A DNA stretch of 38,958 nt from Prevotella sp. (GTDB taxonomy: Bacteria; Bacteroidota; Bacteroidia; Bacteroidales; Bacteroidaceae). The DNA lies in contig JAFUVV010000046.1 of assembly GCA_017477435.1 (NCBI GenBank), forward strand, positions 1 through 38,958, read 5' to 3'. The translations under genes and the position numbers were made by a program. Numbering within the stretch: position 1 is the first letter of the stretch; every line of letters starts with the position of its first letter. The notes under the pieces are model-generated. The model saw only the letters and a list, made by a program, of their open reading frames with translations, was not told where the DNA came from and ran no database searches. Shown here in pieces: positions 1,868-33,666 of the stretch.

Positions 1868-1957
1868 ATTTGCATAATACTGCACTTTCGTTATTTGCGC
1901 CCCGACAGTTTTCTGGCATGTCGGCACATCTTTGAATAAAGAGGCTTTTAAGCAAGA

Positions 1958-2023
1958 CATAAAGGGCTCTTTTATGGAACATAACGGGCTCTTTAATGGC
2001 GCATAACGGGCTCTTTAATGAGA
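1958..2023. repeat. 22-bp palindromic unit array, three units (array F)
   Basis: Three tandem 22-bp units start at 1958, 1980 and 2002. Each has a 6-bp left arm (CATAAA, CATAAC, CATAAC), the 7-bp middle GGGCTCT, a right arm (TTTATG, TTAATG, TTAATG) and a 3-bp spacer. The first unit is perfectly self-complementary; the other two have two mismatches in the arms. A degenerate fourth copy may precede it at about 1936-1957. The architecture matches arrays A-E elsewhere in this window. The array lies between two co-directional genes, 97 bp after the GH32 stop codon. Confidence 0.8.
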
Positions 2024-2191: not shown

Positions 2192-4360
2192 ATGAAAGAC
2201 ATGAAGAGAATACTTACGCTGACGGGTGTAGCCATTATGGCTGCCCTGTCGCTGCATGCCCAGAGCCAGGCAGAGGCGCAGCGAGTGGCATTGCATCAGA
2301 AAGCCGTAGACATAGTGGCAAAGATGACTCTCGACGAGAAGATCGCTCAGATGATAAGCGGCACTCCTGCCATCGAGCGGCTGGGCATAAGGCCTTACGA
2401 CTGGTGGAACGAGGCACTGCATGGCGTGGCACGTCATGGAAAAGCAACATCGTTCCCGATGCCGATAGGACTCGGCGCAACATTCGATGCCGCACTGGTA
2501 AAGCAAATCGGAGAGGTGGTGTCGACAGAGGGAAGAGCGAAATACAACGTGGCGCAGAAGCAGAAAAACTACTGGAGATATACGGGATTGACATACTGGT
2601 CGCCCAACATAAACATCTTCCGTGACCCTCGCTGGGGACGCGGCATGGAGACGTATGGCGAGGACCCATTCCTCACAGGCACACTGGGCACAGCATATGT
2701 CCGCGGCTTGCAGGGCGATGACCCGGTGTATCTGCGCACAGCAGCCTGCGGAAAGCATTTCGCTGTGCACTCCGGACCAGAGGGGACACGACATAAGGAT
2801 AATATCACGCCGTCGCTCAAAGACCTCAACGAGACTTATCTGCCGGCTTTCAAGATGCTGGTGCAGGAAGGTAAAGTGGAGGCTATCATGGGAGCATATA
2901 CCCGTTTGTTTGGCGAGAGTTGCTCGGGTAGCAAGGCTCTGCTCACCGACTTGCTGCGTGATAAATGGGGATTCAAGGGGCATGTGGTTTCCGATTGCGG
3001 AGCCGTTGACGACATATACCGCGGACATGGCATTGTGAAGACAGCTGCCGAGGCAGCGGCAATAGCAGTGAAAGCGGGAGTGAACCTGGAGTGTGGCAGC
3101 TCGTTCCGTTCACTGCATGAGGCGGTGGACAAAGGACTTATCACAGAGAAAGAGATTGACAACGCTCTCATACCGCTGATTGAGACTCGCTATCGACTAG
3201 GCATCATCGACGACGACCCAGCATGCCCTTACAACTATACCGACGAGACAGTGGTGTGCAGCGACGCCAATGCCGCCATTGCACGGCGTGCGGCACAGGA
3301 GAGTATGGTGCTGCTGAAGAACGACGGTGCACTGCCAATAAAGAAAGCACTGCGAAAGATATTCGTCTCGGGACATGGGGCAACAGACATATTCTTCCTC
3401 ATGGGTAACTACTTCGGAGTGAGCGACAGCTACTCAACATACCTCGAGGGGATAACAAGTCATATCACTGCCGGCACAACATTGGAATACCGGACATCAT
3501 ATCTCCCGACGCAGAACAACGACAAGCTGCGCATCAACAACTGGGGAGATGCCCGCAGTGCCGACGTGGCAATAATATTCATCGGCAACAGCGGTGACAC
3601 TGAAGGCGAAGAAGGTGATGCTCTCGACTCGAATGAGAAAGGCGATCACCTGACAATGTCGTTGCCTGAGGAGCAGATGGAGTTTCTGCGGCGTGCATCA
3701 AAAGACCGTTGGAACAAGATTGTGACGGTGGTCACCGGTGGCAGTCCTGTTGAGATGAAGGAGATAGAAGAGCTTTCCGACGCCGTGATAATGGCATGGT
3801 ATCCTGGTCAGGAAGGTGGCGAGGCGTTGGCTGACTTGCTCTTCGGCGATGCCAACTTCAGCGGCAGGCTGCCGATAACATTCCCCGAGTCGACAGATGT
3901 TTTGCCGGCTTTCGACGACTACACAATGAAGGGCCGCACATATAAATACATGACCGACGGGGTGATGTATCCCTTCGGCTATGGACTGAGCTACTCGAAA
4001 GTAACCTATTCCGACGCCACAGCGACGCTGACAAAGCAGGGACTCCACGTCACAGCTACTCTCCGCAACGAGTCGGACATCGCCACAAGCGAGGTGCCAC
4101 AGGTATATCTGCGTGTACCAGGGGCTGGACAGACGGCAGCAGAGTGGACTCTGATAGCATTCGACAGGATAGATATTCCAGCCAAGGCAACCAAAGAGAT
4201 ATCCTTCGACATACCCACTGAGCGACTGATGACAGTGCAAGACAACGGCGAGAGCAAGCTGCTCAAAGGGCAGTACACCGTGGCAGTGGCGGCAGCAGCT
4301 CCCCTGAAGCGCTCCGAACAGCTTGGAGTAAGCATGACAAAAGCAACATTCAAAAAATAA
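2192..4360 (+). CDS. Secreted glycoside hydrolase family 3 (beta-xylosidase/beta-glucosidase type)
   Basis: About 722 aa. Starts at GTG 2189, ATG 2192 or ATG 2201 are possible; all retain the signal peptide, which ends at an HAQ motif near residue 24. The GH3 N-terminal barrel carries WWNEALHGV (about residue 72), typical of xylosidase/arabinosidase-like GH3 enzymes, the KHF substrate-binding motif (about 189-191) and VVSDCGAVDD, whose Asp (about 269) is the catalytic nucleophile. The second alpha/beta sandwich begins around ESMVLLKNDGALPI, and a fibronectin type III-like domain follows PFGYGLSYS. The family removes terminal non-reducing beta-linked sugars (glucose, xylose, or arabinose in some members). 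The oligopeptide transporter starts 9 bp after the stop codon, so the two are probably co-transcribed. The specific substrate is not determinable from sequence. Confidence 0.93.
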   Translation: MKDMKRILTLTGVAIMAALSLHAQSQAEAQRVALHQKAVDIVAKMTLDEKIAQMISGTPAIERLGIRPYDWWNEALHGVARHGKATSFPMPIGLGATFDAALVKQIGEVVSTEGRAKYNVAQKQKNYWRYTGLTYWSPNINIFRDPRWGRGMETYGEDPFLTGTLGTAYVRGLQGDDPVYLRTAACGKHFAVHSGPEGTRHKDNITPSLKDLNETYLPAFKMLVQEGKVEAIMGAYTRLFGESCSGSKALLTDLLRDKWGFKGHVVSDCGAVDDIYRGHGIVKTAAEAAAIAVKAGVNLECGSSFRSLHEAVDKGLITEKEIDNALIPLIETRYRLGIIDDDPACPYNYTDETVVCSDANAAIARRAAQESMVLLKNDGALPIKKALRKIFVSGHGATDIFFLMGNYFGVSDSYSTYLEGITSHITAGTTLEYRTSYLPTQNNDKLRINNWGDARSADVAIIFIGNSGDTEGEEGDALDSNEKGDHLTMSLPEEQMEFLRRASKDRWNKIVTVVTGGSPVEMKEIEELSDAVIMAWYPGQEGGEALADLLFGDANFSGRLPITFPESTDVLPAFDDYTMKGRTYKYMTDGVMYPFGYGLSYSKVTYSDATATLTKQGLHVTATLRNESDIATSEVPQVYLRVPGAGQTAAEWTLIAFDRIDIPAKATKEISFDIPTERLMTVQDNGESKLLKGQYTVAVAAAAPLKRSEQLGVSMTKATFKK

Positions 4361-4369
4361 ACACGAAAA

Positions 4370-6352
4370 ATGGACAAGGAAAAAGATTTAATCCAGCTTC
4401 CGGAGAACGCGTTCCGCGAGCTGAAGGAGGGCGAGGAATACTCGCCCGTTATGAGTCCCGAGGGCAACTATCCGGAGGTGAACACGTGGTCGGTCACGTG
4501 GGGCATCCTCATGGCAGTGCTCTTCTCGGCCGCCGCAGCCTATCTGGGGCTGAAGGTGGGCCAGGTGTTTGAGGCTGCCATTCCGATCGCTATCATCGCC
4601 GTAGGCGTGTCGACGGCGGCAAAGCGCTCGCAGGCACTCGGCGAGAACGTTATCATCCAGAGCATCGGAGCATGCTCAGGAGCAGTGGTGGCAGGAGCGA
4701 TATTCACGCTGCCGGCAATATATATCCTGCAGGCAAAGTATCCGGAGATGACGGCATCGTTCATGAAGATATTCCTTGCCTCGGCGCTCGGTGGCATCAT
4801 CGGAATATTGTTTCTCATCCCGTTCCGCAAGTATTTCGTGAGCGACATGCACGGCAAGTATCCCTTCCCTGAGGCTACGGCGACGACGCAGGTGCTCGTC
4901 AGCGGCGCAAGGGGTGCGGGGCAGGCTAAGCCGCTGCTCATAGCGGGCCTCGTGGGCGGTCTCTACGATTTCGCCGTGGCAACGTTCGGGCTGTGGAATG
5001 AGAATGTCACTTCGCGGATGATTGGCCTGGGCGAGATGGTTGCCGACAAGGCGAAGCTTGTGTTCAAGCTCAATACGGGCGCGGCAGTGCTCGGACTGGG
5101 ATATATCATCGGACTGAAATATGCTTTCATCATCTGCCTCGGCTCGGCGGCGGTGTGGTGGCTGATAGTGCCGGGAATGGCGTTGCTGTTCCCCGACACA
5201 GTGGTCAACGTCGGGGGCAGCCAAGTGACGACGGCGGTGGGGGCAATGCCCCCCGAGGCCATCTTCGCCACCTACGGCAAGGCCATCGGCATAGGAGGCA
5301 TCGCAATGGCGGGCATCATCGGAATCATAAAGAGCTGGCCCGTGATAAAGAGTGCCATACATAAGATGAAGCCTCAGCAGGGCGGCGAGGTCAGACATGA
5401 GACAGTGAAGCGCACGCAGAGAGACATACCGTTCAAAATCATCGCCATAGGGTCGCTCGTGGCAATCGTCGTGACGTTCTTATTCTTCTGGTTTGGGGTG
5501 ATGAACAATCTTCTCCATGCCGTAGTGGCTATCGTCCTGGTGGCTATCATTGCGTTTCTCTTCACCACCGTTGCCGCCAATGCCATCGCCATCGTGGGCT
5601 CCAACCCCGTGTCGGGCATGACGCTGATGACGCTCATCATCGCCTCCGTGGTGATGGTGGCAGTGGGATTGAACGGCCCTGCGGGCATGGTGGCAGCACT
5701 GATAATGGGCAGTGTGGTATGCACGGCGCTCTCCATGGCGGGAGCATTCATCACCGACCTGAAGATAGGCTACTGGCTCGGCACCACTCCAGCACGTCAG
5801 CAGACGTGGAAGTTCCTCGGCACGCTCGTCTCGGCAGCCACCGTCGGCGGCGTGATGATGCTCCTCAACCAGACCTACGGCTTCGACCCAGAGTCGCCCA
5901 CCCATCTCGTGGCGCCGCAAGCCAACGCCATGGCGGCAGTCATCGAACCGATGATGAACGGTGCAGGTGCCCCGTGGCTGCTCTACGGCATCGGCGCTCT
6001 CATCGCCATCGCCCTCACGGCAGCGAAGATACCGGCACTGCCTTTCGCCCTCGGAATGTTCATTCCCCTCGAGCTAAACCTCCCGCTGCTCGTGGGTGGT
6101 GCGGTGAACTGGTTTGTGACGACACGTTCTAAGGACAAGAAGGAGAACCACGACCGCGGCGAGCGCGGCACGCTCATCGCCAGCGGATTCATCGCCGGCG
6201 GAGCACTGATGGGAGTGGTGAGTGCACTGCTGCGCTTCGGAGGGTTCGACGCCATCAACCCCCAGTGGCTTGCCGACCCACTGTCGCAGGCACTGTCGCT
6301 CGCAGCATACCTCTTCCTGATTATCTTCTTCATCCGCGCAACAAGGAGATAA
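4370..6352 (+). CDS. OPT-family oligopeptide transporter
   Basis: A 660-aa integral inner-membrane protein with about 14-16 hydrophobic segments. It starts with a short polar N-terminus and the NTWSVTWGILMAVLFS segment, followed by AYLGLKVGQVFEAAIPIAI, typical of bacterial OPT proteins. Family members import small peptides or, in the YSL branch, metal chelates, driven by protons. Other OPT-like landmarks are KYPFPEATAT, NAIAIVGSNPVSGMTLMTL and a late PALPFALGMFIPLELNLPLLVGG stretch. The length is normal for the bacterial family. It sits 9 bp behind the GH3 gene, probably in the same transcript, and is followed by a hairpin with a T-rich tail. The link between a glycosidase and a peptide transporter is positional only. 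Confidence 0.92.
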   Translation: MDKEKDLIQLPENAFRELKEGEEYSPVMSPEGNYPEVNTWSVTWGILMAVLFSAAAAYLGLKVGQVFEAAIPIAIIAVGVSTAAKRSQALGENVIIQSIGACSGAVVAGAIFTLPAIYILQAKYPEMTASFMKIFLASALGGIIGILFLIPFRKYFVSDMHGKYPFPEATATTQVLVSGARGAGQAKPLLIAGLVGGLYDFAVATFGLWNENVTSRMIGLGEMVADKAKLVFKLNTGAAVLGLGYIIGLKYAFIICLGSAAVWWLIVPGMALLFPDTVVNVGGSQVTTAVGAMPPEAIFATYGKAIGIGGIAMAGIIGIIKSWPVIKSAIHKMKPQQGGEVRHETVKRTQRDIPFKIIAIGSLVAIVVTFLFFWFGVMNNLLHAVVAIVLVAIIAFLFTTVAANAIAIVGSNPVSGMTLMTLIIASVVMVAVGLNGPAGMVAALIMGSVVCTALSMAGAFITDLKIGYWLGTTPARQQTWKFLGTLVSAATVGGVMMLLNQTYGFDPESPTHLVAPQANAMAAVIEPMMNGAGAPWLLYGIGALIAIALTAAKIPALPFALGMFIPLELNLPLLVGGAVNWFVTTRSKDKKENHDRGERGTLIASGFIAGGALMGVVSALLRFGGFDAINPQWLADPLSQALSLAAYLFLIIFFIRATRR

Positions 6353-6445: not shown

Positions 6446-6533
6446 AGTACATGGGCCTTGTACTGCAAGTACATGTACGCTGTACTACGAGTACATGGGC
6501 TTTGTACTCCGAGTACAAGAGCTATGTACTGCA
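6446..6533. repeat. 22-bp palindromic unit array, four units (array A)
   Basis: Exactly 88 bp made of four 22-bp units starting at 6446, 6468, 6490 and 6512. Every unit is AGTACA, seven variable bases, TGTACT, three spacer bases. All eight arms are perfect, while the middles differ (TGGGCCT, TGTACGC, TGGGCTT, AGAGCTA). The array lies between the transporter terminator and the TPP riboswitch promoter. There is no open reading frame with coding character across it. Confidence 0.95.
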
Positions 6534-9312: not shown

Positions 9313-9974
9313 ACTTTCAATTTTCAACCTCCTTGGTAACACTCGATTTCATCGGTGCCGTGCTCGGCATCATCTACATACTGCTCGAATACCGCGCCTC
9401 GATATGGCTGTGGATAGTGAGCATCATCATGCCCCTCGTCGACATGATGCTATATTTCCGTGCCGGACTATACGCCGACTTCGGCATGGCCGTCTACTAC
9501 GCCCTCGCCGCCATCTACGGCTTCTGGATGTGGAAAAGGAAGAGCAACAATGGCGACAGCACCACCATCAGCAGCCAGCAAGACAGCCACCAGAACAGAA
9601 TCACCTTCTTCCCCCGCCGTCTCATCCTGCCAACTATCGTCGTCCTGCTCGCCCTGTGGTTTGCCATCTACGAAGTGCTCATCCACTTCACCGACAGCAG
9701 CGTACCCGTCACCGACAGCTTCACATCCGCACTGAGCATCGTCGCACTATGGGCTCTCGCCCACAAGTACGCAGAGCAGTGGCTCCTATGGATCGTCGTC
9801 GACGCCATCAGCAGCACACTCTACGTCTACAAAGGCATACCCTTCAAGGCATCGCTCTACGCACTCTACGTGGTAATAGCCATCTTCGGCTATCGCAAGT
9901 GGTGCCGCATGATAAGAGAAGGAGAACAGGCAAAAGCAGCCGACAGCACACCACACTCCACTATCAAAGCTTGA
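9225..9974 (+). CDS. pnuT: PnuC/PnuT-family vitamin transporter, probable thiamine carrier
   Basis: Up to 249 aa with about seven membrane segments. The conserved part starts at LDFIGAVLGIIYILLEYRASIWLW and includes the PnuC-typical tryptophan-rich helices and the later WLLWIVVDAISSTLYVYKG segment. PnuC-family carriers move nicotinamide riboside or, in the PnuT branch, thiamine across the inner membrane by facilitated diffusion with trapping by phosphorylation. The TPP riboswitch and receptor upstream indicate thiamine. The start is uncertain: ATG 9225 and ATG 9279 are possible, and the first 35 or so residues come from a repeat insertion rather than conserved protein. A polar linker of about 30 residues sits between the third and fourth hydrophobic regions. 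The stop codon lies inside array E. The thiamine pyrophosphokinase gene often found next to pnuT in Bacteroides is absent. Confidence 0.88.
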   Translation: MCKPKAESLLYAEAPPNFMEQSDIKPKTENFQFSTSLVTLDFIGAVLGIIYILLEYRASIWLWIVSIIMPLVDMMLYFRAGLYADFGMAVYYALAAIYGFWMWKRKSNNGDSTTISSQQDSHQNRITFFPRRLILPTIVVLLALWFAIYEVLIHFTDSSVPVTDSFTSALSIVALWALAHKYAEQWLLWIVVDAISSTLYVYKGIPFKASLYALYVVIAIFGYRKWCRMIREGEQAKAADSTPHSTIKA

Positions 9975-10047
9975 CAGTATCACTATCCGTGCTTGACAGT
10001 ACCACTATCCGTGCTTGACAGTACCACTATCCGTGCTTGACAGCAGA
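9960..10047. repeat. 22-bp palindromic unit array, four units (array E)
   Basis: Four 22-bp units begin at 9960, 9982, 10004 and 10026. Each is ACTATC, seven bases (AAAGCTT once, CGTGCTT three times), GACAGT (GACAGC in the last), three bases. The arms are complementary except for one position. The first unit overlaps the end of pnuT and supplies its stop codon. The array is followed by a bidirectional terminator and lies between convergent genes. Confidence 0.92.
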
Positions 10048-16840: not shown

Positions 16841-16928
16841 AGTAGAAAGCCCATGTACGGGGAGTACAAAGCCCATGTACGGGGAGTACAAAAGCCAAGT
16901 ACGGGGAGTACAAAGCCCATGTACTCCA
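16841..16928. repeat. 22-bp palindromic unit array, four units (array C)
   Basis: Exactly 88 bp: units start at 16841, 16863, 16885 and 16907. Left arms AGTAGA, AGTACA, AGTACA, AGTACA; middles AAGCCCA three times and AAAGCCA; right arms TGTACG, TGTACG, AGTACG, TGTACT; spacers GGG, GGG, GGG, CCA. The middle is the reverse complement of the TGGGCTT seen in array A, so this array sits in the opposite orientation. It lies in the divergent gap between merR and alaS. Confidence 0.93.
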
Positions 16929-20945: not shown

Positions 20946-21012
20946 GCGCAGGTGCGGGCCCCCCTTCCCCCCATGGGGGGTAAAACGAAGAACGAAAACG
21001 AAGAACGAAGGA

Positions 21013-21166
21013 CCACAGATTGCGCAGATTAAACAGATTTTTCATCCGTGCACAATACGAAATAAAAAAAAGATTTCACAGATTCGAGCAGCATGAATCT
21101 GTGAAATCTTTTTTCAAGTTCTATACAAGAAGAAAGAATAATCTGTTTAATCTGTGAAATCTGTGG
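21013..21166. repeat. Nested inverted-repeat element containing a 20-bp hairpin
   Basis: Outer arms of 27 bp lie at 21013-21039 and 21140-21166; each is three 9-bp units of the type nnnCAGATT or its complement, and the arms match except at two positions. Inside lies a perfect 20-bp stem at 21066-21085 and 21095-21114 with a 9-nt loop. The inner stem is A-rich on the left and T-rich on the right and so is a bidirectional terminator between the convergent BspA-like and GH95 genes. To the right the sequence AATCTGTGGTA recurs at about 21158, 21179 and 21201, giving a 21-22 bp period. Confidence 0.85.
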
Positions 21167-21225
21167 TAGAAAAAGTGAAATCTGTGGTAGTAAAAGTGAG
21201 AATCTGTGGTATAAATGTCCAGCGT

Positions 21226-23550
21226 TCACTTTTTTATACTACACGCTACTTGTTTCACTTCTCCGTTTATGCGGCAGGTGACAGTCTGCGGTTCCTTAGA
21301 GCGAAGTTGATAGGCAGTGACCTTTCCGTCTGCCCATGTGATGTCGGCTTCTATTCCACCTCGGGCACAGATGCCTCTTACGCTACCCGACGACCACTCC
21401 TTCGGCAGGGCAGGCAGGAAGTCGAGATAGCCGTCGTAGCTCTGCAACAATGCTTCGCAGATGCCGCTCACTGCTGCCTCGTTGCCATCGAAGCTGAAGA
21501 TATCGCTCTGTGCGCCGGCCACCCCTTGCGGCGATACCGACATAAGATTGTCGCTGACGAAACGTTCATACATTCCCATCAGCGAACGGTAGGTCTCCTC
21601 GGGATTCTTCAGACGAGCGTAGAAGTTGATCATATTGCCGCGTGTCCACTCAGTGTCTTCCCACCATCCACACTTTGTCTGCAGTTCGAGGAACTTGTCG
21701 CACGCTGCTGCCAACTGCGGTGTGCGTTCCGGCGATATCTGACTGAAGGGATATAGCGTCACGAGATGCGATGCATGGCGGTGGGCTTGGTTGGTGCGGT
21801 GACCGTCTACCTGCCACTCCATGAGTGCACCGTCGCTACCCACACGCAGCGGTGGCAACCGAAGAATGTCGCGCTCAAGACGGCTGCGCATGTCGGCATC
21901 GACATCGAGCAGTCGCGATGCTTGTATGCAGGCATCGTAGATGTCGTAGACAACACCACGGTCAATCGTTGGCATCATTGAAACAAAGTATGGTGTCTTG
22001 CCATCGAGGCTGAAGGCAGTCTCTGGAGAGATGCTTGGACCGGTGACGAGATATCCCGTACGAGGGTCTTCCACCATATAGTCGATGAAGAATTCGGCTG
22101 TCTTTTTCAGCAGCGGGTAGCCAGTCTGCCGCAGGTAGTCGATGTCCTGAGTGTACTGAAAATGTGTCCAGAGGTGGGTAGCTATCCATGCCCCCGCTGT
22201 GACATTGGCAGCCCAGGCGAGCCCTTTGCCTGGCATGGTGTTGCCCCACACGTCGTTCATCGTATGCGCCACCCATCCACGGCAGCCATACATCACACGG
22301 GCCGTCTCGCTGCCATGCTTGGCGAGGTCGGCAATGTAGCTAAACAAGGGAGCATTACACTCTGGCATATTGGCGATGTTCGCCGACCAATAGTTCTGCT
22401 GGATATTTATGTCGAGGTGGTAGTCGCAGGTCCATCCCATATTGCATGCGAGGTTGTCGTTCCATATCCCTTGCAGATTGGCGGGCAGGGGGGAGTTTTC
22501 CCTCGACGAAGATATGAGCATATAGCGACCGTAGTTGAAGAATATCTCGTCGAAAAGGGGGTTCGATTTCCCCGCCCGTGCATCCTTCAACATATCTTCC
22601 ATCGGGGGAAGAACCGTGGAGCCAATGCCTACGCTTGGGTTAAGAGTGAGCGAAATGCGCGAAAAGAGCGGCGAATAGTCTTCGACATGAGATTTTCTGA
22701 GTTGTTTGTATGACATGGAGAGAGCTGTGGCGACAGTGTGGTTGCAAAGCTGGATGAAATCTTTGTCGGCATAATTCGTTCGTATATCGCAGACGAGAGT
22801 CATTGCCCTTGCATCGCTGACGACAATTTTATCGCCTTCAGCCGCGACGTTTCCGCCGTCGGTCTTAACGCTTATGACTCCACGGAAATCGACTCCTCCG
22901 ATGCCATGAAGATCGAAGAGGCAATTACCGTCGACGATTATCTTGTTTCCCTCTGCCTTCACGTTGCTGTTTCTGAGCATATCGACCCCGACGACAACGT
23001 TTATCCGTCCGCCCTTCCTTGCTGTGTATCTCGCCACGAAAGCCTGTGCAGGGTTGCTGCAGAAGTATTCGCGACTGTATTGTTTCCCATCGACGGTATA
23101 TTCCACATTGGCAAGAGCCTGACTCATGTCGAGCTGACGGCGATAGCCAAACACGCGGCCTACTCTGTCCGTAGATTTTATCACTATATCTCCGAAGGGC
23201 AGATGGGTTCCTGCAGCCTTACGGTCGGCCACGAGATGATGCCATGCCAGGCTGTCGGCGAGGGCGTAGTTGTCGGCAAAGACTGCCTTTCTGATGCGGG
23301 CAAGCATCTCCGGTCCGCAGACATCGTTGGCCGCTGTGTTGAGGCTGCCCGACCACATGGTCACCTCGTTCATTGCTATGTGCTCTTCGAACACGCCGCC
23401 ATAGACCATCGCCCCGATGCGTCCGTTGCCAAGGGGAATAGCGGCATGCCAGCGTGCGGCAGGGGTGTTGTAGTAGATCTTCGCGTTACTCTCGCGTGCC
23501 GACAGCTGCATCGACAGCGTCAGCATGAACGCCACAAATAATGTCTTCAT
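21226..23550 (-). CDS. Secreted glycoside hydrolase family 95 (alpha-L-fucosidase/alpha-L-galactosidase)
   Basis: 774 aa from ATG 23550, which begins the signal peptide KTLFVAFMLTLSMQLSA; the frame is open to 23571 but the extra seven residues come from low-complexity DNA. The N-terminal domain shows the GH95 signature IYYNTPAARWHAAIPLGNG and GAMVYGGVFEEHIAMNEVTMWSGS. The (alpha/alpha)6 catalytic region holds DYHLDINIQQNYW and TGPSISPETAF, whose Glu is the expected general acid. The family inverts terminal alpha-1,2-fucosyl or related alpha-L-galactosyl bonds, for example on mucin glycans, milk oligosaccharides or plant xyloglucan. In the LDINIQ motif the first catalytic-base-assisting Asn of the bifidobacterial enzyme is replaced by Asp, which needs alignment to judge. 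The SprT gene ends 50 bp upstream on the same strand. Confidence 0.93.
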   Translation of the reverse strand: MKTLFVAFMLTLSMQLSARESNAKIYYNTPAARWHAAIPLGNGRIGAMVYGGVFEEHIAMNEVTMWSGSLNTAANDVCGPEMLARIRKAVFADNYALADSLAWHHLVADRKAAGTHLPFGDIVIKSTDRVGRVFGYRRQLDMSQALANVEYTVDGKQYSREYFCSNPAQAFVARYTARKGGRINVVVGVDMLRNSNVKAEGNKIIVDGNCLFDLHGIGGVDFRGVISVKTDGGNVAAEGDKIVVSDARAMTLVCDIRTNYADKDFIQLCNHTVATALSMSYKQLRKSHVEDYSPLFSRISLTLNPSVGIGSTVLPPMEDMLKDARAGKSNPLFDEIFFNYGRYMLISSSRENSPLPANLQGIWNDNLACNMGWTCDYHLDINIQQNYWSANIANMPECNAPLFSYIADLAKHGSETARVMYGCRGWVAHTMNDVWGNTMPGKGLAWAANVTAGAWIATHLWTHFQYTQDIDYLRQTGYPLLKKTAEFFIDYMVEDPRTGYLVTGPSISPETAFSLDGKTPYFVSMMPTIDRGVVYDIYDACIQASRLLDVDADMRSRLERDILRLPPLRVGSDGALMEWQVDGHRTNQAHRHASHLVTLYPFSQISPERTPQLAAACDKFLELQTKCGWWEDTEWTRGNMINFYARLKNPEETYRSLMGMYERFVSDNLMSVSPQGVAGAQSDIFSFDGNEAAVSGICEALLQSYDGYLDFLPALPKEWSSGSVRGICARGGIEADITWADGKVTAYQLRSKEPQTVTCRINGEVKQVACSIKK

Positions 23551-23600
23551 AGTTTTTAGTTTATAATTCATAGTTCAAAGTCGTACTTGTTCTTCTCCTT

Positions 23601-24254
23601 TTATAGAGGCAGGGAGTGAACATTGCTTCCTGCCTCTTTTATTCTCTCATATTCTTCCCGCGTCACTCGTCTTCCTCTCAGCGATCTCACCTGTGGGAAG
23701 TCGGCGAAATACTCGTCGCTGCTGATGAGCCAGTGGTGCTCGCTGATGTCGCGTGCCTTGTCGAGTATGCGCTCTATCGCCGACCGATATTTTGCATTCA
23801 CGACCGTGACAATATATCCTGCCTGCTTATGCCGCAGCAGTAGCACGAGTCGCTCGCGAGGCTTAGGCTTGCTTACTGGAGTATAGTCCTTCAGCCGCGT
23901 GGATACCGTGACCTCCCAGCCATACTCCTTGTTCAGGACGTTCATCATCTTGCGGAACGTCACTCCGTGGGCCGACGTGTCGGGCAATCCCATCGAGGCG
24001 ATGCAGAGATGTATCATCTCGTGGAGCAGAATGTTCTCTGCCTGCCGCTCGGTCATCACGAAGGCGGTGGTGAGGCGGAGGGTGAAATCGGTCTTCACGA
24101 TGCGGAACATCCGCCGGTTGCATTTATACGACAGCGTACCGAGTCGCGTCTTCGAGCGTGAGAGCCCGAACGCAGGCGTCGGAAGCTTACCTTCGAAATA
24201 GCTGTCGTTGAACTCAGCGAAGCGTTTCTGCATCCATTCTCTGTCTACAATCAT
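23601..24254 (-). CDS. SprT-like zinc metalloprotease domain protein
   Basis: A 217-aa cytoplasmic protein. The SprT-like domain occupies about residues 5-115, with NDSYFEGKLPTPAFGLS at the start and the zinc-binding HEMIH (H78, E79, H82) followed by the SAHGVTFRKMM segment providing the third ligand. The C-terminal half, about 100 residues, is basic and unrecognised (RLVLLLRHKQAGYIVTVVNAKY..., then LRGRRVTREEYERI). SprT/Spartan proteins in eukaryotes cut proteins cross-linked to DNA; bacterial members are little studied. Its start codon overlaps the stop of the helicase gene upstream (24251-24254), indicating translational coupling and a shared role. Confidence 0.88.
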   Translation of the reverse strand: MIVDREWMQKRFAEFNDSYFEGKLPTPAFGLSRSKTRLGTLSYKCNRRMFRIVKTDFTLRLTTAFVMTERQAENILLHEMIHLCIASMGLPDTSAHGVTFRKMMNVLNKEYGWEVTVSTRLKDYTPVSKPKPRERLVLLLRHKQAGYIVTVVNAKYRSAIERILDKARDISEHHWLISSDEYFADFPQVRSLRGRRVTREEYERIKEAGSNVHSLPL

Positions 24255-25711
24255 ATTGTCTGCGTTTTAGGCCAGTTGACGAGATATAGTTTCTCCGTAG
24301 CTCGGGTGAAGGCAGTGTAGAGCCAGTGGATGTAGTCGGGGGTGAGCATGTCGTCGGTCATGTATCCCTGATCGACGTACACATGTTCCCACTGGCCGCC
24401 TTGTGCTTTGTGACACGTCACGGCATAGGCGAATTTTACCTGCAGGGCATTATAGTGTATATCGCTGCGCAGTTTTTTTATGCGCTCTTCGCGGGATGGT
24501 ATGTCGGAATAATCTTCAAGCACCTTATAGTACAGTTGCTCGTTTTGCTCGTGGGTGAGGGCCGGAGCGTCGGTCATCAGCGTGTCGGTGATGATGGTGG
24601 TCTGAATCTCATAGTCGTCGTAGTCGGGCAACGTCAGCCAGACGTCGACGAAATTGAATCCATACAACTGCCGATGATTCCTCACTTTCCTCACCACGGC
24701 GATGTCGCCATTTGCAAGAAACTGTGGTGCTCCGTCGTCGGTCTCCTCTGTCTCTGGTGTCGCGTCGGCGGCTTTGTTCTGCTCTATCCAGAAATAGTTG
24801 TTCTTCACTATCATGAGCATGTCGCCCGTCTGGAGCATGTCCTCCCGTCCGAGCACTTGGTTGCGTATGCCTTGGTTGTAGATGTTTGCGCGCTTGTTGC
24901 TTCGGGTGATCACTATCGTAGAGTCTGTCCCCACGTGGCTGTAGCTCGACGAGAGGCTTTCGATGAGTTCACCGCCGGGCACCATCTCTATATCTGCAAA
25001 TCCGCTGAACTTCACCTTCGGCAGTCCTCCGACGATGTCGCCGCCTTCTATCATCCTCCTCACGACGGTGGCGTTGGAGAGTATGCCGCTGCCTTCTGCC
25101 TGACGCATCACCTCGTTCAGCGTACACTCGCTGACGTTCAGTCCGTAGCGCCGGAGCACGTCGGCACTGAGCGCCGGCGATTCTTCCTCGCCCACGGGAG
25201 GCAGCTGGGCGCTGTCGCCGATGAACATGATCTTGCAGTTCATTCCTGAAAAGACAAACTGAAGCAAATCGTCGAGCAGCCGCCCCGTGCCGAAGATGCT
25301 CTCGCTCTGACGGTTGGATATCATCGAGGCTTCGTCGACAATGAACAGCGTGTAGTTCATGCGGTTGTAGTTCAGGTCGAACGATCCTCCTGCTGCGTCG
25401 ACCGACTTCTGACGGTATATCTTCCTGTGTATCGTGAACGCAGCGTGGCCGCTGCTCAGTGCAAACACCTTCGCCGCACGGCCCGTAGGAGCAAGGAGCA
25501 TGATTTTCCGTCCCACCTTCACCATCGTCCTCACTATTGCCGAGGCCAAGGTGGTCTTTCCCGTTCCTGCCGAGCCGCGCATGATCATCGCCGACATTGG
25601 CTCGCGACTCAGGAGGAAACGTGCGAACACGTCCATCGCCGCTGCCTGCTCCCGCGTAGGGTCGACAGACATATTTTGCCTGATTTGATAAATTAGTTCG
25701 TCGATAATCAT
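24251..25711 (-). CDS. RecD/UvrD-like superfamily 1 helicase (AAA family ATPase)
   Basis: 486 aa. Walker A GSAGTGKTT (about 46-54), motif Ia LLAPTGRAAKVF, Walker B LFIVDEASMIS (about 122-132) and motif III region IMFIGDSAQLPPVGEE define an SF1 helicase of the RecD/Dda kind. The C-terminal VTCHKAQGGQWEHVYVDQG (about 431-449) and YTAFTRATEKLYLV are motifs V and VI. An SH3-like insertion around LANGDIAVVRKV is typical of RecD2/Dda. It would unwind DNA 5' to 3' in repair or recombination; there are no RecB or RecC partners here. The 4-bp overlap with the SprT gene implies joint expression. A TATCTTCG box on the minus strand (25743-25750) lies 32 bp upstream, back to back with the promoter of the DUF3822 gene. 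Confidence 0.92.
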   Translation of the reverse strand: MIIDELIYQIRQNMSVDPTREQAAAMDVFARFLLSREPMSAMIMRGSAGTGKTTLASAIVRTMVKVGRKIMLLAPTGRAAKVFALSSGHAAFTIHRKIYRQKSVDAAGGSFDLNYNRMNYTLFIVDEASMISNRQSESIFGTGRLLDDLLQFVFSGMNCKIMFIGDSAQLPPVGEEESPALSADVLRRYGLNVSECTLNEVMRQAEGSGILSNATVVRRMIEGGDIVGGLPKVKFSGFADIEMVPGGELIESLSSSYSHVGTDSTIVITRSNKRANIYNQGIRNQVLGREDMLQTGDMLMIVKNNYFWIEQNKAADATPETEETDDGAPQFLANGDIAVVRKVRNHRQLYGFNFVDVWLTLPDYDDYEIQTTIITDTLMTDAPALTHEQNEQLYYKVLEDYSDIPSREERIKKLRSDIHYNALQVKFAYAVTCHKAQGGQWEHVYVDQGYMTDDMLTPDYIHWLYTAFTRATEKLYLVNWPKTQTI

Positions 25712-25740
25712 TGACTTTCAGAAATAAATCACTATTTTTG
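25711..25740 (+). promoter_or_regulatory. Promoter of the DUF3822-rsmD operon
   Basis: TTG at 25711-25713, 19 bp, TATTTTTG at 25733-25740. The TTG overlaps the start codon of the divergent helicase gene, and the two opposed -7 boxes lie 2 bp apart, so the two promoters would compete. Confidence 0.65.
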
Positions 25741-25780
25741 TGCGAAGATAATCAAAATCTGCCAATAACAGAAATAAAGA

Positions 25781-26635
25781 ATGAAAAAAATAAACACATT
25801 ATCACGCCTGGTGATCCGCATCGGCAAGGACACTCTTTCCTTCTCCGTCATCGACAACGACTCCGAGAACCAGATCATCCTCGAGCCCTACGTGGTCAGG
25901 AGCGGCATCTCGATGGCTGCCAACCTTCGCGAGGCGTTCACGAAGAGCGACCTTCTCATGGCTGGCTACGAGAAGGTGCACGCCATAGTCGACTCGCCAG
26001 TGGTGCTCATACCCACTGCAGAGCTAAACGAAGGACGAAAGAACGAAGACGATAGCGACGACGAAAACGGTGACGAGGGCGTGGCCTCGCTCCTCACCGA
26101 TACCTACAACCACACCATCAGCGACGCGAAGAACCATGTGGTGCTTTCTCACGAACTGCCTGAACTGGGCGCCACGGCGCTGTTCTCCATAAACAAGGAC
26201 CTGAAACTGGTCGTCGACGACCATTTCAGCGACGTGCGCATAAGCCCGCTCATGTCGTCGGTGTGGCGATATCTCTACCACCGCGACTTCCAGTCGGCAG
26301 CCAGGAAGCTATTCGTCTACCGCCACGAGGGGATGACCGACATCTTTGCCTACGACCACGGGCGGTTTAAGTTTGCCAACAGCTACCGCACGCGTACCGC
26401 AGCCGATACGGCCTACTTCATCCTCGCCGTGTGGAATCAGCTGGGCCTCGACAGCAAGCGCGACGAGATACACCTCGCAGGCTTCGACGCCGAGAAGGAC
26501 GATCTGCGCACAGAGCTGTCGCGCTTTGTAGAGACCGTGGTGGCAATCAACCCGTCGGCAGAGTTCAACCGAGCTCCGATCACACGCATAAAAGGACTGC
26601 CATTCGACATGATGACGTTGTTCGTAAAGAAATAA
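25781..26635 (+). CDS. DUF3822 family protein
   Basis: 284 aa, cytoplasmic, no signal peptide. The family is restricted to Bacteroidetes and has an actin-like (ASKHA) flavour: the N-terminus LSRLVIRIGKDTLSFSVID resembles a phosphate-1 strand pair, and later come DIFAYDHGRFKFANSY and LAGFDAEKDDLRTELSRFV. The function is unknown. An acidic stretch at about residues 81-100 (ELNEGRKNEDDSDDENGDEG) looks like an inserted low-complexity loop, because its DNA resembles the ACGAAGAACGAA repeat in the gap at 20985-21012. rsmD starts 5 bp after the stop codon, a conserved neighbourhood in Bacteroidales. Confidence 0.88.
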   Translation: MKKINTLSRLVIRIGKDTLSFSVIDNDSENQIILEPYVVRSGISMAANLREAFTKSDLLMAGYEKVHAIVDSPVVLIPTAELNEGRKNEDDSDDENGDEGVASLLTDTYNHTISDAKNHVVLSHELPELGATALFSINKDLKLVVDDHFSDVRISPLMSSVWRYLYHRDFQSAARKLFVYRHEGMTDIFAYDHGRFKFANSYRTRTAADTAYFILAVWNQLGLDSKRDEIHLAGFDAEKDDLRTELSRFVETVVAINPSAEFNRAPITRIKGLPFDMMTLFVKK

Positions 26636-26640
26636 AAACC

Positions 26641-27174
26641 GTGAGAATAATAACAGGAATATATCGCGGCCGGCGATTTGAAATACCTCGCACCTTCAAG
26701 GCACGACCGACCACCGACTTTGCAAAGGAAAACATCTTCAACGTGATGAACGGCCTCGTTGACTTCGACGATGCCACGGCACTCGATCTCTTTGCCGGCA
26801 CAGGGAGCATCTCTCTCGAACTGCTCTCGCGCGGATGCCGCGAGGTGGTCAGCGTAGAGCTCGACAGACAACACGCCGCGTTCATCTCACAGTGCATGGA
26901 TAAAGTTGGAGCAGGCGAGAAAAGCATCCTCATAAAGGGCGATGCCCTGAAATACATCAAAGCCTGCAGCCGACAGTTCGACATCATCTTCGCCGACCCA
27001 CCCTACTCCATGCCCGAACTGCCCACCATACCCGAGCTGATACTTTCCTCTGGACTGCTGGCCGAAGGGGGACTGCTCGTCTTCGAGCACGGCAAGCATA
27101 ACGACTTCTCCGACCATCCTCGCTTCTTCAACCACCGCGAGTATGGCAGCGTGAACTTCAGCCTGTTCAGATAG
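26641..27174 (+). CDS. rsmD: 16S rRNA (guanine(966)-N2)-methyltransferase RsmD
   Basis: 177 aa from GTG 26641, which gives the normal RsmD start MRIITGIYRGRRFEIP; no ATG is available before that block. Rossmann methyltransferase with RPTTDFAKENIFNVM, the SAM-binding LDLFAGTGSISLELLSRG and the catalytic ADPPY motif (about residues 118-122). It methylates G966 of 16S rRNA in the assembled 30S subunit. It is translated together with DUF3822 and is followed by a strong terminator. Confidence 0.95.
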   Translation: MRIITGIYRGRRFEIPRTFKARPTTDFAKENIFNVMNGLVDFDDATALDLFAGTGSISLELLSRGCREVVSVELDRQHAAFISQCMDKVGAGEKSILIKGDALKYIKACSRQFDIIFADPPYSMPELPTIPELILSSGLLAEGGLLVFEHGKHNDFSDHPRFFNHREYGSVNFSLFR

Positions 27175-27253
27175 AGAGACCGAAGCCGGCACCATTCAAA
27201 TATATTTTTTCAACGCAGTTCAGGCACTGCGCGGCTGTCTGCATAAAAAAATA

Positions 27254-27278
27254 CCCAGGGCAACACCCTGGGATTTTT
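27254..27278. terminator. Intrinsic terminator after rsmD
   Basis: CCCAGGG (27254-27260), loop CAACA, CCCTGGG (27266-27272), then ATTTTTG; an A-run on the left lets it also act on the minus strand. Confidence 0.88.
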
Positions 27279-27368
27279 GATGCTGCAACCCTGGTCAGCA
27301 TGGCAGCAAAGATCGCATGCAAGAGGCACAACATTAATCTGACGACTTCTCAACAGGCCGACTCGACA

Positions 27369-27456
27369 AGTACATGGGCCTTGTACTCCGAGTACATGAC
27401 TCTTGTACTGAGAGTACACGGGCTTTGTACTGACAGTACAAAAGCCATGTACTGCA
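27369..27456. repeat. 22-bp palindromic unit array, four units (array B)
   Basis: Exactly 88 bp, with units at 27369, 27391, 27413 and 27435. All arms are perfect AGTACA and TGTACT; the middles are TGGGCCT, TGACTCT, CGGGCTT and AAAGCCA; the spacers are CCG, GAG, GAC and GCA. The arms are identical to array A, 20 kb away. It lies in the convergent gap between rsmD and the SemiSWEET gene. Confidence 0.95.
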
Positions 27457-27485
27457 GCCTGTACTATCTCCCGACGCAAGAAGAA

Positions 27486-27573
27486 AGCCTCCGAGACAAG
27501 CGCAGGAAGCCTCCGAGACAAGCGCAGGAAGCCTCCGAGACAAGAGCTAAGAGCCTTCGAGACAGCGATGGGA
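27486..27573. repeat. Second 22-bp-period array next to array B (array B2)
   Basis: Four 22-bp units start at 27486, 27508, 27530 and 27552; the first two are identical and the others increasingly diverged. Read on the minus strand, the best units have arm CCTGCG, a 7-bp middle CTTGTCT, arm CGGAGG (one mismatch) and spacer CTT, the same 6-7-6-3 layout as arrays A-F. The array starts 29 bp after array B and ends 6 bp before the stop codon of the SemiSWEET gene. Confidence 0.8.
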
Positions 27574-27579
27574 AGAGGG

Positions 27580-27870
27580 CTATTTCTTGCTGAAATAGTC
27601 GTTCTTGATCTTTATGCCGAAGATTATCACACTGCAGATAGTGGTGATAAGGTTGGTGACGAAGAGAAATATCCCCTCGCGACCGAGCATGTAGCCCTGA
27701 ATCATGAAACAGATGCCGCCGATGGCCATCATGAGAAATGTTGCCAGGGCGATGTCGTCGGTGCGGCGAGTACGTATCGTCTGAATGGCTTGGGGCAGGT
27801 AGCCCAGGATCAGGCAGATGCTTGCCGTCCAGCCGATGATTTGATAGAAAGTGTTTGTCTCCATTGTCAT
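27580..27870 (-). CDS. SemiSWEET-type sugar transporter (PQ-loop)
   Basis: 96 aa from ATG 27870 (ATG 27864 also possible). A longer frame to 27906 would begin upstream of the -7 box and is rejected. Three membrane helices with the PQ-loop signature: IIGWTASICLILGYLPQAIQTIRTRRTDDIA in helix 1 (PQ near residue 20), then LATFLMMAIGGICFMIQGYMLG and IFLFVTNLITTICSVIIFGIKIK. SemiSWEETs are half-size relatives of eukaryotic SWEET proteins and work as homodimers moving mono- or disaccharides down a gradient across the inner membrane. The gene is single and divergent from nadB; its substrate is not indicated by context. Confidence 0.9.
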   Translation of the reverse strand: MTMETNTFYQIIGWTASICLILGYLPQAIQTIRTRRTDDIALATFLMMAIGGICFMIQGYMLGREGIFLFVTNLITTICSVIIFGIKIKNDYFSKK

Positions 27871-27893
27871 TATTGTTTTTTTTCTGGTTTCTG

Positions 27894-27901
27894 CGAAGAT
27901 A
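27894..27901 (-). promoter_or_regulatory. -7 box of the SemiSWEET gene
   Basis: TATCTTCG on the minus strand, 23 bp upstream of ATG 27870. No well-placed TTG is seen. It decides against the longer start at 27906. Confidence 0.5.
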
Positions 27902-27964
27902 CTCATTTTTTATAAATTATAGAAATTATACACCGAAAAAAACAATCTTTTGAAAAAATATCAG

Positions 27965-27972
27965 TAACTTCG
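27965..27972 (+). promoter_or_regulatory. -7 box of nadB
   Basis: TAACTTCG, 17-20 bp upstream of the start codons; a TTG at 27950-27952 is too close (12 bp) to be the usual -33 element. Confidence 0.45.
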
Positions 27973-27992
27973 CGCCGATAAACCTATTAGTG

Positions 27993-29594
27993 ATGATCTA
28001 CAAGTATGATTTCCTCATCATCGGCGGCGGTGTTGCCGGCATGAGCTATGCCCTGAAGATTGCCCGGGCGAAAAAGGGCAAGATATGTCTCATCTGCAAG
28101 ACCACCCTCGACGAGGCCAACACGAAGTTTGCCCAAGGCGGTGTGGCCAGTGTGACCAACCTGAAGATAGACAACTTCGAGAAACACATCGAAGACACGA
28201 TGATCGCCGGCGACTTCATCTCCGACCGCGCTGCCGTGGAGCAGGTGGTCAGAAACGCCCCGGCACAGATAGCAGAGCTCGTCGGATGGGGCGTCAACTT
28301 CGACCGCAACGCCGACGGAGAGTTCGACCTGCACCGCGAAGGCGGACACTCAGAGTTCAGAATCCTACACCATGCCGACGACACTGGCGCAGAGATACAA
28401 CGCGGACTGATGGCGGCCGTCAGAGCATGCCCAGACATCGAGGTGAAGGAAAACCACTTCGCAGTGGAGATAATCACGCAGCACCACCTCGGCGTGGAGG
28501 TCACCCGACGCACGCCCGACATTGAGTGCTACGGAGCATACGTGCTCCGACCCGACGAGAAAAAGGTCGACACCTATCTGTCGCGCGTCACACTGATGTG
28601 CACAGGAGGCTGCGGAGCCGTCTATATGACAACGTCGAACCCCATCATAGCCACCGGCGACGGAGAAGCAATGGCCTATCGAGCAAAAGCCACCGTGGCC
28701 GACATGGAGTTCGTACAGTTCCACCCAACCGTGCTCCACAACCCCAAAGAGACCCACCCCGCATACCTCATCACCGAGGCAATGCGAGGATATGGAGGCA
28801 TACTGCGACTGCCGACAGGCGAATCCTTCATGGAAAAATACGACCCACGACTCTCGCTGGCACCGCGAGACATCGTGGCACGCGCAATCGACAAAGAGAT
28901 GAAAATACACGGAATAGACCACGTATGCCTCGACGTCACGCATAAAGACCCTGAGGAGACACGCCACCACTTCCCAAACATCTACCAGAAATGCCTCTCC
29001 ATAGGCATCGACATCACAAAAGAGTATATCCCCGTACGGCCTGCAGCCCACTATATGTGCGGCGGAATAAAGGTGGATCTCAACGGCGAGTCGAGCATCC
29101 ATCGCCTCTACGCCATCGGCGAATGCTCGTGCACAGGACTACACGGCGGAAACCGACTGGCATCCAACTCGCTCATAGAAGCCGTGGTCTATGCCGATGC
29201 AGCAGCGAAACACTCACTGAAACATATCGACGAATACTCGTTCAACAACGACATTCCCGAGTGGAACGACGAGGGCACGATGACCAACGAGGAGAAGGTG
29301 CTCATCACACAGAGCGTGAAAGAAGTGGCAGAGATAATGTCTAACTACGTCGGCATCGTCCGCAGCGACCTCCGACTAAAGCGCGCCTGGGACCGACTCG
29401 ACCTGCTATACGAGGAGACCGAGGCACTCTTCAAGCGCGTGAAAGCCACACGCGACATCTGCGAACTGCGAAACCTCATCAATACCGCCTACCTCATCAC
29501 ACGATGGGCCATCGAACGCAAGGAATGCCGGGGGCTGCACTTCACGATAGACCATCCACACCACGCGTACGACAAAGTGGAAAATGTAAAGTGA
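27993..29594 (+). CDS. nadB: L-aspartate oxidase
   Basis: 533 aa from ATG 27993 (a GTG one codon earlier is also open). FAD-binding dinucleotide fold FLIIGGGVAGMSYALKIA at residues 7-24, the flavoprotein block KFAQGGVASV, the substrate-side RxGGHSExRILHHADDTGxEI-type segment (HREGGHSEFRILHHADDTGAEI) and the C-terminal IGECSCTGLHGGNRLASNSLIEAVV. The enzyme oxidises L-aspartate to iminoaspartate, the first step of de novo NAD synthesis; in anaerobes fumarate serves as electron acceptor. nadA and nadC are not in the window. The PH-domain gene follows within a few bases, suggesting an operon with it and the carboxypeptidase. Confidence 0.96.
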   Translation: MIYKYDFLIIGGGVAGMSYALKIARAKKGKICLICKTTLDEANTKFAQGGVASVTNLKIDNFEKHIEDTMIAGDFISDRAAVEQVVRNAPAQIAELVGWGVNFDRNADGEFDLHREGGHSEFRILHHADDTGAEIQRGLMAAVRACPDIEVKENHFAVEIITQHHLGVEVTRRTPDIECYGAYVLRPDEKKVDTYLSRVTLMCTGGCGAVYMTTSNPIIATGDGEAMAYRAKATVADMEFVQFHPTVLHNPKETHPAYLITEAMRGYGGILRLPTGESFMEKYDPRLSLAPRDIVARAIDKEMKIHGIDHVCLDVTHKDPEETRHHFPNIYQKCLSIGIDITKEYIPVRPAAHYMCGGIKVDLNGESSIHRLYAIGECSCTGLHGGNRLASNSLIEAVVYADAAAKHSLKHIDEYSFNNDIPEWNDEGTMTNEEKVLITQSVKEVAEIMSNYVGIVRSDLRLKRAWDRLDLLYEETEALFKRVKATRDICELRNLINTAYLITRWAIERKECRGLHFTIDHPHHAYDKVENVK

Positions 29595-29615
29595 AAAGTG
29601 AAAAAAAACATCCCT

Positions 29616-31236: not shown

Positions 31237-31280
31237 TTCAAAAAGCGAGAGCAAGAGATTTAGCACTTTTCGTATATAAT

Positions 31281-31324
31281 AAATCGGTGGAGATGCCCAT
31301 GACATCTCCACCGATTTGTTTTTT
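31281..31324. terminator. Bidirectional terminator between dacB and the beta-barrel gene
   Basis: A perfect 15-bp stem, AAATCGGTGGAGATG (31281-31295) with CATCTCCACCGATTT (31303-31317), and a 7-nt loop, followed by GTTTTTTT. It serves both convergent genes. Confidence 0.92.
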
Positions 31325-31341
31325 AGCCTAAATGCTGGCTA

Positions 31342-32164: not shown

Positions 32165-32195
32165 GCCGGTGGAACGAGATGGGGGCGCTGATATT

Positions 32196-33632: not shown

Positions 33633-33666
33633 AGCGAAAAATGAATGAGGCCTGTATCTCCAGCAC

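Follow-up and report, generated by a model that had tools for sequence, protein, structure and literature searches.

The window analysed here is a stretch of 38,958 nucleotides from the genome of Prevotella sp. (GCA_017477435.1; 2,320,315 b, 77.9% complete; hereafter G000), in which a preliminary description had drawn attention to seven arrays with a period of 22 bp. All seven were recovered on re-reading (Table 1), including array A, which was indeed found to consist of four units with perfect AGTACA/TGTACT arms. The claim that the same layout recurs along the window holds for the number of units (four in arrays B, C, D, and E), with full arm pairing limited to A and D. The presumed three-unit relative at 1958-2023 is part of array F, a weak four-unit chain that begins at 1935 and lies in a different register. 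The array described as being of a second type has a period of 22, yet its arms are unpaired at the same offsets. Other period-22 arrays directly adjoining an AGTACA array, comparable to the one at 27486, lie 82 bp to the right at L073 11865 and 42 bp to the left at L056 13541.

At the gathering score, the sole Rfam match in the window was a TPP riboswitch (RF00059, 67.4 bits, 6728-6825), located downstream of array A and upstream of an ORF at 6896. Short AACGAAG heptamer repeats occur at 20984-21010 (intergenic) and 26027-26049 (inside a predicted gene), with further heptamer repeats at 10417-10455 and 29574-29604; a TCGTTA hexamer array of 10.8 copies (37828-37892) lies within a predicted gene.

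Table 1 Period-22 arrays and register features in the window
Feature	Position	Strand	Description	Paired arm bases of 6, by unit (interval read)
Array A	6446..6530	.	Four AGTACA-N7-TGTACT units, spanning 85 bp when the last spacer is left out	6 in all four units (6446-6533)
Array B	9960..10047	.	Four units, RSTATC arm family (ACTATC/GACAGT)	5,5,5,4 (9960-10047)
Array C	16841..16925	.	Four AGTACA-type units, arms paired 4-6 of 6	4,5,4,6 (16841-16928)
Array D	27369..27453	.	Four perfect AGTACA units	6 in each of four units (27369-27456)
Array E	32077..32164	.	Four units, RSTATC arm family (AGTATC/GATACT)	5,5,6,6 (32077-32164)
Array F	1935..2022	.	Weak units, RMTAAA arm family	6,4,4 (1958-2023)
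Period-22 array of second type	27486..27573	.	Palindromic arms absent	2,2,3,1 (27486-27573)
One-phase stretch	21001..37500	.	Genes on both strands; phase shared with arrays D and E	
Coding DNA	3001..6000	.	Phase one base away from that of array A (21), with block optima of 0 and 0	

Arrays as four-unit double-stranded DNA sites

Across 1.10 Mb (47% of G000), exactly four units were present in 78 of 80 AGTACA-N7-TGTACT-N3 arrays: 54/54 in the first 758,937 b (the window together with fetched stretches) and 24/26 in a held-out set of 339,006 b (L165-L184), where the two exceptions were one real two-unit array and one case resembling a chance match. The ends of the arrays are sharp, with 6-12 mismatches of 12 in the would-be zeroth or fifth unit, and lone units are scarce (three with at most one mismatch in the first 404 kb). 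Decayed longer arrays were rejected, as outward position 6 was never T in 108 ends although the units carry T there. Exact two-unit matches numbered 343 in G000, versus 0 for the reversed-pattern control. When 404 kb were scanned for a four-palindrome score of at least 18 of 24, 41 places were found at period 22 and 0-3 at all other periods from 14 to 40, bar period 33, at which 30 places represent an alias of two dyads 11 bp apart.

The 78 four-unit arrays correspond to a mean density of one per 14 kb, and the G000 chromosome carries more than 100 short four-unit palindrome arrays. The median gap between neighbouring arrays was 6.1 kb in G000 (31 gaps; biased by the 20-kb stretches) and 5.4 kb in the related genome G058 (40 gaps). 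The coefficients of variation of these gaps were 0.46 and 0.57, respectively, where random points would give about 1, an expectation that leaves intergenic placement out of account. Such spacing fits spaced anchors.

A second arm family of G000, RSTATC/GATASY, accounts for 19 chains within the first 759 kb; after trimming, at least three units remain in 18 of them (four units in 4, five in 6, and six in 8). Weaker and partly overlapping families have RCATAA, ACAAAA, and RMTAAA arms. As the listing of arrays outside the AGTACA family ends with the first 758,937 b, such arrays stayed unmasked in the hold-out loci L165-L184. Two composite arrays (L030 17352 and L035 16508) have two RMTAAA-type units between two copies or near-copies of the palindrome AATTTTGCTAGCAAAATT, on a 22-bp grid.

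The exact two-unit AGTACA pattern was present in 11 of 398 genomes of the genus, ten of which had 1-8 matches. Among the matches listed, most carriers of AGTACA arrays were MAGs of Prevotella or Prevotellaceae, joined by one Bacteroidaceae and one Bacteroidales MAG, and several come from ruminant stomachs, judging by titles. Named carriers had at least 24 chains, some of them cut by record ends: 18 with four units, 4 with three, and one each with five and six. One carrier, the MAG RUG12886 (G398), has contigs 96-97% identical to G000 (L140, L144, and L148); as it contains just 25 two-unit matches in 2.6 Mb despite this identity, it is probably chimeric, and the absence of arrays there carries no meaning.

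In 56 relatives (1.146 Mb), the palindrome scan gave 46 matches at 22 bp versus 3-25 at other periods (47 at period 33, again an alias), a background per period at this threshold that keeps single weak rows from serving as proof. The arms found in relatives are unrelated to AGTACA (e.g., GCGAAA, TTTACC, CTAGAA, GTTACA, TGTTCC, and GTAAAA). In 260 kb of G058, RAAACG-N3-CGTTTY units form 42 chains, with four units in 23 chains, five in 14, six in 4, and three in 1, the outer units often being weak or of a different type. In many G058 arrays (L036, L037, L119-L129), the outer units are conserved from one array to the next, reading CANNTGANNNTCANNG...GTT on one side; some have TAAAGGC/GCCTTTA ends, and the arrays may be larger elements. 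The step spacing, dinucleotide pattern, matrix-based phase, and superperiod of G058 given below rest on the best run of four units in each of the 41 chains that have four or more. On the comparison of these families and relatives, the layout is kept while the arm sequence turns over. A unit number fixed at four, as originally proposed, is thus a property of the AGTACA family (78/80); the number varies in RSTATC and is not strict in G058.

Arm-pair covariation was assessed in 216 AGTACA units of G000 and was close to zero (z ~0) for nearly all pairs, pair 4-16 (z 4.0) being raised by one compensated unit. The 189 units of G058 gave z ~0 for all pairs, with outer arm positions variable enough to inform. 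The outer loop pair was anti-complementary (z -8.9). The RSTATC arm pairs 2-18, 3-17, 5-15, and 6-14 reached z 2.9-5.1, as did the spacer pair 18-2 (z 3.6), and these associations are put down to the likeness of units within one array. In four orthologous arrays, G000 and RUG12886 differed at 0/192 arm, 4/112 loop, and 3/36 spacer positions with four units in both, versus 37/497 substitutions, plus gaps, in the near flanks; the ortholog of array A in L144 has four units and 0 arm changes.

According to our own ORF caller, applied to the first 758,937 b only (the loci used for the codon, promoter/terminator, and neighbouring-gene tests as well), 53 of 54 AGTACA arrays are intergenic. The genes flanking the 54 arrays are tandem in 29 cases, convergent in 12, divergent in 9, and not classed in 4, which roughly tracks the intergenic length in the same DNA (77.9, 21.6, and 17.1 kb for tandem, convergent, and divergent, respectively). 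In gaps of 40-500 bp, the motif TAnnTTTG, which we take to be the Bacteroidales -7 element, pointed towards the gene in 30 of 44 array-start codon gaps and backwards in 8 of 44. Terminator-like hairpins between stop codon and array, counted over the same range of gap lengths, were few (7/36; other strand, 3) and form the weak side of this picture. Six of 53 stop-side gaps are 126-128 bp long, with no sequence common to the array-gene interval.

With no arm covariation and a promoter motif between array and gene, the arrays behave as double-stranded DNA sites and not as RNA hairpins, the alternative that the preliminary description had kept open and that these two results do not support. Its other suggestion, of palindromes facing one side of the DNA and suiting a dimeric protein, is supported by the same two results (the motif in 30/44 gaps), by the 0/192 arm substitutions, and by in-phase flexible steps outside the arrays (see below). 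It had also regarded a broad range of unit numbers, together with arm changes that break complementarity, as the mark of ordinary tandem repeats. By this yardstick the outcome was mixed: the number proved not broad in the AGTACA family and variable in other families; arm changes inside a species do not preserve complementarity, which is seen across families and species.

A 22-bp register extending through genes

What the preliminary description had missed is that the arrays sit as nodes in a 22-bp register of kilobase length: a dyad-symmetric dinucleotide pattern continues in register from them through intergenic DNA and genes. Beside the arrays it takes the form of a comb of steps at outward positions 6, 19, 28, 41, 50, and so on, with spacings alternating between 13 and 9, whose first base is rarely G and second rarely C, in the register of the TpA steps of the arms. 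From the first of these positions, further steps were predicted between 63 and 138, and in the 107 ends already used every one of them proved raised (z 2.8-5.8). In 50 held-out ends, the thirteen predicted steps scored 0.843 and shifted combs at most 0.738, although step 138 did not stand out clearly from the average there. At the comb steps, TG/CA, CG, and TA are enriched, and GC, GT, and CC are depleted. The RSTATC arrays (35 ends) and those of RUG12886 (18 ends) showed the same comb, while in other named MAGs (29 ends) it was weak and near the array. The spacing of flexible steps differs by species (13/9 in G000, 15/7 in G058).

Further away from the 78 arrays, unit positions 3 and 16 took the top two ranks among the 22 phases in all distance bins up to 2970 bp, with only the cores of neighbouring arrays masked. 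At 0.4-2 kb, GC steps were depleted at positions 3 and 16 (z -8.7 and -9.7) and enriched at 10 and 20 (z 5.4 and 4.9), CA and TG were raised at 3 and 16, and by eye the code looks reverse-complement symmetric. After removal of the other known arrays together with 400 bp around each, DNA 0.4-3 kb away was within 1 of the array phase in 46 of 78 cases (10.6 expected); a leave-locus-out matrix placed DNA 0.2-2 kb away in the array phase in 62 of 78 (10.6 expected). That matrix, although learned round AGTACA arrays only, also found 15 of 18 RSTATC arrays in phase with far DNA (2.5 expected), and in the three weaker families 5 of the 11 rows agreed with the far-DNA phase. At a period of 22.0, consecutive AGTACA arrays were mutually in phase (p ~3e-5 over 31 gaps, with a Rayleigh R of 0.58; best period 22.01), and much less so at 20, 21, 23, and 24 (p = 0.03-0.45).

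In a test that selects no array, with known arrays masked, the autocorrelation of GC and HD steps peaked at multiples of 22 (as well as at 11 and 33), reaching z 7.9-13.5 over the range 300-1000 bp and z 9.4-10.3 over 1000-3000 bp. The signal at 22 was stronger than that at 11 (z 4.9-8.3). Coherence lasted to 7-11 kb (z 2.1 and 4.3 at a period of 22.000; 3.8 and 6.0 at 22.005) and was gone at 11-16 kb. The far signal is small per lag, and a lag-by-lag view of far DNA showed no peak at 22. The best-fitting period of G000 was 22.005, not 22.000, and block phases along the sequence drifted up oftener than down (+1 in 94 cases, -1 in 46).

Adjacent 1.5-kb blocks agreed within 1 in 307 of 648 comparisons (88.4 expected, z 25). 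The same test gave |z| below 1 at periods 20, 21, 23, 24, and 25, z 3.2 at period 19 (132/648), and z 1.2 with one row-permuted matrix. In 200 kb of E. coli K-12, the adjacent-block z was 0.4 and the autocorrelation of GC and HD steps had no 22 or 11 signal, compared with z 2.4-10.2 for two 200-kb samples of G000 in the same autocorrelation test. An artefact of codon periodicity was rejected, the comb visiting all codon phases, the modulo-3 effect having been removed, and other periods failing; neighbouring arrays were rejected as the source of the far signal, which persisted with them masked.

In coding DNA, the signal was largest where the step includes the third codon position (z 10.6 and 11.3) and small at codon positions 1-2 (z 3.5), with z 5.0 in non-coding DNA. 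Of 135 usable pairs of neighbouring genes, 109 agreed in phase to within 2 (30.7 expected), regardless of orientation and with or without an array between them; a pair was usable if each gene was 600 bp or longer and had a z of 3.5 or higher, which 62% of 399 genes pass. The window, which was held out of matrix training, illustrates the register and its limits. Successive block optima modulo 22 in the one-phase stretch are 1,0,0,0,0,21,0,1,1,2,2; array D lies within 2 of this phase (that of the DNA from ~21 to 37 kb), and arrays D and E have equal phases modulo 22. In the first 15 kb, block phases run 18, 20, 0, 0, 19, 19, 15, 17, 16, 17, with arrays A and B at 21 and 15. Between 15 and 21 kb there is no clear block phase, array C itself being at 10.

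In a second species, G058, whose arms are different, the register recurs but reaches less far. With arrays masked, adjacent 1-kb blocks of this genome were in phase in 108 of 234 comparisons (31.9 expected); 27 of 41 arrays were in phase with far DNA (5.6 expected), and consecutive arrays were mutually in phase at 22 (40 gaps, p = 2e-4). The register fails at periods 20, 21, 23, and 24, for which the matrices were unsymmetrised, symmetrisation having been applied for 22 only. The unsupervised signal reached z ~7 up to 1 kb and was gone beyond (z 0.1 and 1.3; arrays unmasked). The pattern in G058, AA/TT against GC about one dyad, differs in its details from that of G000, and scoring with the G000 matrix gave 35/156 blocks (z 3.2, arrays unmasked). 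The same matrix, with arrays unmasked, detected no register in the array-bearing genomes G117 and G128 (6/60 and 5/72 blocks), whose own signal is at most weak and short-range. The other relatives gave 98/635 blocks with this matrix (z 1.3) and, when pooled without a matrix, z 1.5-5.9 at 22 (arrays unmasked).

A putative protein-DNA fibre and its rivals

On balance, we lean towards a reading in which the arrays act as register-setting nucleation sites for a putative dimeric DNA-coating or DNA-wrapping protein, whose protein-DNA fibre the surrounding DNA has come to fit. A symmetric (dimeric) DNA-bending protein would bind the double-stranded array sites once per 22 bp, and contiguous strong sites, four in the main family, would nucleate a regular fibre and set its register. 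The fibre would then extend in both directions for several kilobases over weakly matched DNA, spacers and genes alike. Because each dimer would cover exactly 22 bp, that is two turns at 11 bp per turn, the surrounding kilobases would have drifted or been selected to fit, mostly via third codon positions, with flexible CA/TG/TA steps at kinks and GC at dyads. A protein making the register, its nucleation by the arrays, and a dimer that coats or wraps are all three inferred. Counting against this reading are the loss of the unsupervised signal beyond 1 kb in G058, a step spacing that changes with the species, the missing register of G117 and G128 under the G000 matrix, the part of the window at 15-21 kb with no clear phase, and the lack of a 44- or 88-bp superperiod. 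We infer that two unlike dyads 11 bp apart, in a 22-bp repeat blind to gene direction, are the imprint of a non-polar string of protein dimers. More tentatively, this fibre may be linker-free and phase-locked, with one dimer per 22 bp running uninterrupted for ~10 kb through genes, its register set by four-unit palindromic nodes of species-specific sequence and codon choice adapted to it.

Candidate genes for such a protein are present at one HU, one HU-HIG, and three AsnC-domain places in G000 (78% complete); they are candidates only. HU and IHF introduce two kinks 9 bp apart, and flexible steps are 9 bp apart in G000 and 7 bp apart in G058. Lrp/AsnC proteins form octamers of four dimers, and AGTACA arrays do carry four units. 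An 88-bp turn round such an octamer was nonetheless rejected, with no 44- or 88-bp superperiod in either autocorrelation or array spacing.

Of the alternatives, the one that survives best, although we regard it as doubtful, is that the register is an unselected mutational imprint: a regular fibre, or some other periodic process (e.g., scanning by repair or replication), would bias mutation with a period of 22, and the arrays would be no more than the places of strongest binding. The signal is indeed strongest where third codon positions take part. Between sister strains, moreover, substitutions at comb positions (71/2409, after dropping positions with a local z under 4) were not fewer than elsewhere (339/10818; z -0.5), so that present-day selection at these positions is not shown. 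The conserved arms (0/192) argue against such an imprint, and a regular 22-bp structure would still be needed, which makes this a rival on the cause of the register and not on the fibre.

Considerably less probable is a code of intrinsic curvature that serves supercoiled DNA without any protein, as a strong version of the known periodicity of ~11 bp. Period 11 is present too, and the AA/TT against GC pattern of G058 would suit such a code. It sits poorly, however, with the two unlike dyads, the 13/9 spacing, and a signal in G000 that is stronger at 22 than at 11, and equally with coherence to 7-11 kb and a register tied to palindromic nodes, as a bend code in free DNA should need no kilobase phase. 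E. coli had no signal in GC and HD steps, tests that leave its AT-tracts aside.

That the arrays are operators of a transcription factor binding as four cooperative dimers is very unlikely. One-face dyad sites, often upstream of a promoter motif, are what operators would look like, but flanking gene orientations are roughly as expected from intergenic length, and the phase in distant genes would be left unexplained. We give slightly less credence still to mobile elements of the kind represented by REP/BIME or MITEs, for which dispersed intergenic palindromes and the partly shared conserved ends of G058 flanks could be cited. REP/BIME elements have a linked RAYT (Y1) transposase, and four Y1-transposase matches were found; two of the four loci (L185 and L186) contain array units in the 3.3 kb retrieved, which may be chance given how frequent arrays are. 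Against mobility, target duplication at G000 arrays (offsets 0-59) was limited to scattered single cases without consistency, no flank is conserved past ~8 bp except for the comb, and insertions would not be expected to keep step with the chromosome modulo 22. That the arrays are ordinary tandem repeats or transcribed hairpins is, in spite of the tandem layout, arms able to pair, and a variable RSTATC number, scarcely tenable given four units in 78/80 AGTACA arrays, the lack of covariation, an anti-complementary outer loop pair (z -8.9), and the promoter motif that separates arrays from genes in 30/44 gaps.

It is an old open question whether bacteria pack their DNA in a regular, sequence-registered fibre. 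On the favoured reading of arrays as nucleation sites, sequence alone would predict the register of the fibre over several kilobases, the places of its anchors, and exact positions for nuclease mapping; if true, codon choice in register genes would also bear a DNA-structural message.

Comparison with known systems

Among the matches listed, we found no literature on a Prevotella or Bacteroidales nucleoid with such arrays or a 22-bp period; as the coverage excluded most subscription journals and all preprints, the novelty of the arrays and the 22-bp register is not proven. The BrickBuilt MITE of Porphyromonas gingivalis has a 23-nt repeat consensus inside an element with terminal inverted repeats, as described in the accessible part of the report (PMC4596501). 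The G000 arrays resemble it as a short tandem unit in a Bacteroidales genome, but differ in their period of 22 instead of 23 and in an unrelated consensus, so far as that part of the source goes, and no BrickBuilt-type terminal inverted repeats were found in G000. REP/BIME elements, in the available portion of PMC3733652, are palindromes of 20-40 bp with a GTAG or CGTC tag at one end. Like these, the arrays are intergenic palindromes in many copies; unlike them, they are four-unit tandems of AGTACA-N7-TGTACT-N3 with no GTAG/CGTC tag in the consensus, phased with the surrounding genes.

The histone-like chromatin formed by HTa of Thermoplasma (PMC6877293) offers another parallel: a small DNA-binding protein, regular chromatin, and a dinucleotide code, which in the present case is an idea drawn from nucleotide patterns. 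The 22-bp unit, by contrast, seems linker-free and keeps one phase over kilobases. Finally, periodicities of ~11 bp have been described in bacteria as "class A flexible patterns" (PMC1242344) and in cyanobacteria as a "structural code" (PMC4132750), and periodic motifs in bacterial genomes were treated in PMC7537859, each available in part. Phased signals of ~11 bp extend for ~100 bp, E. coli having AT-tracts of that kind, according to the excerpt of PMC4132750. The register of G000 shares with these a dinucleotide period of helical scale in coding and non-coding DNA and, within the accessible portions of these sources, a preference for third codon positions. It departs from the ~100-bp signals of PMC4132750, as excerpted, in its period of 22, its two unlike dyads, and its coherence over 7-11 kb, and from ~11-bp periodicity in that its register is locked to palindromic nodes.
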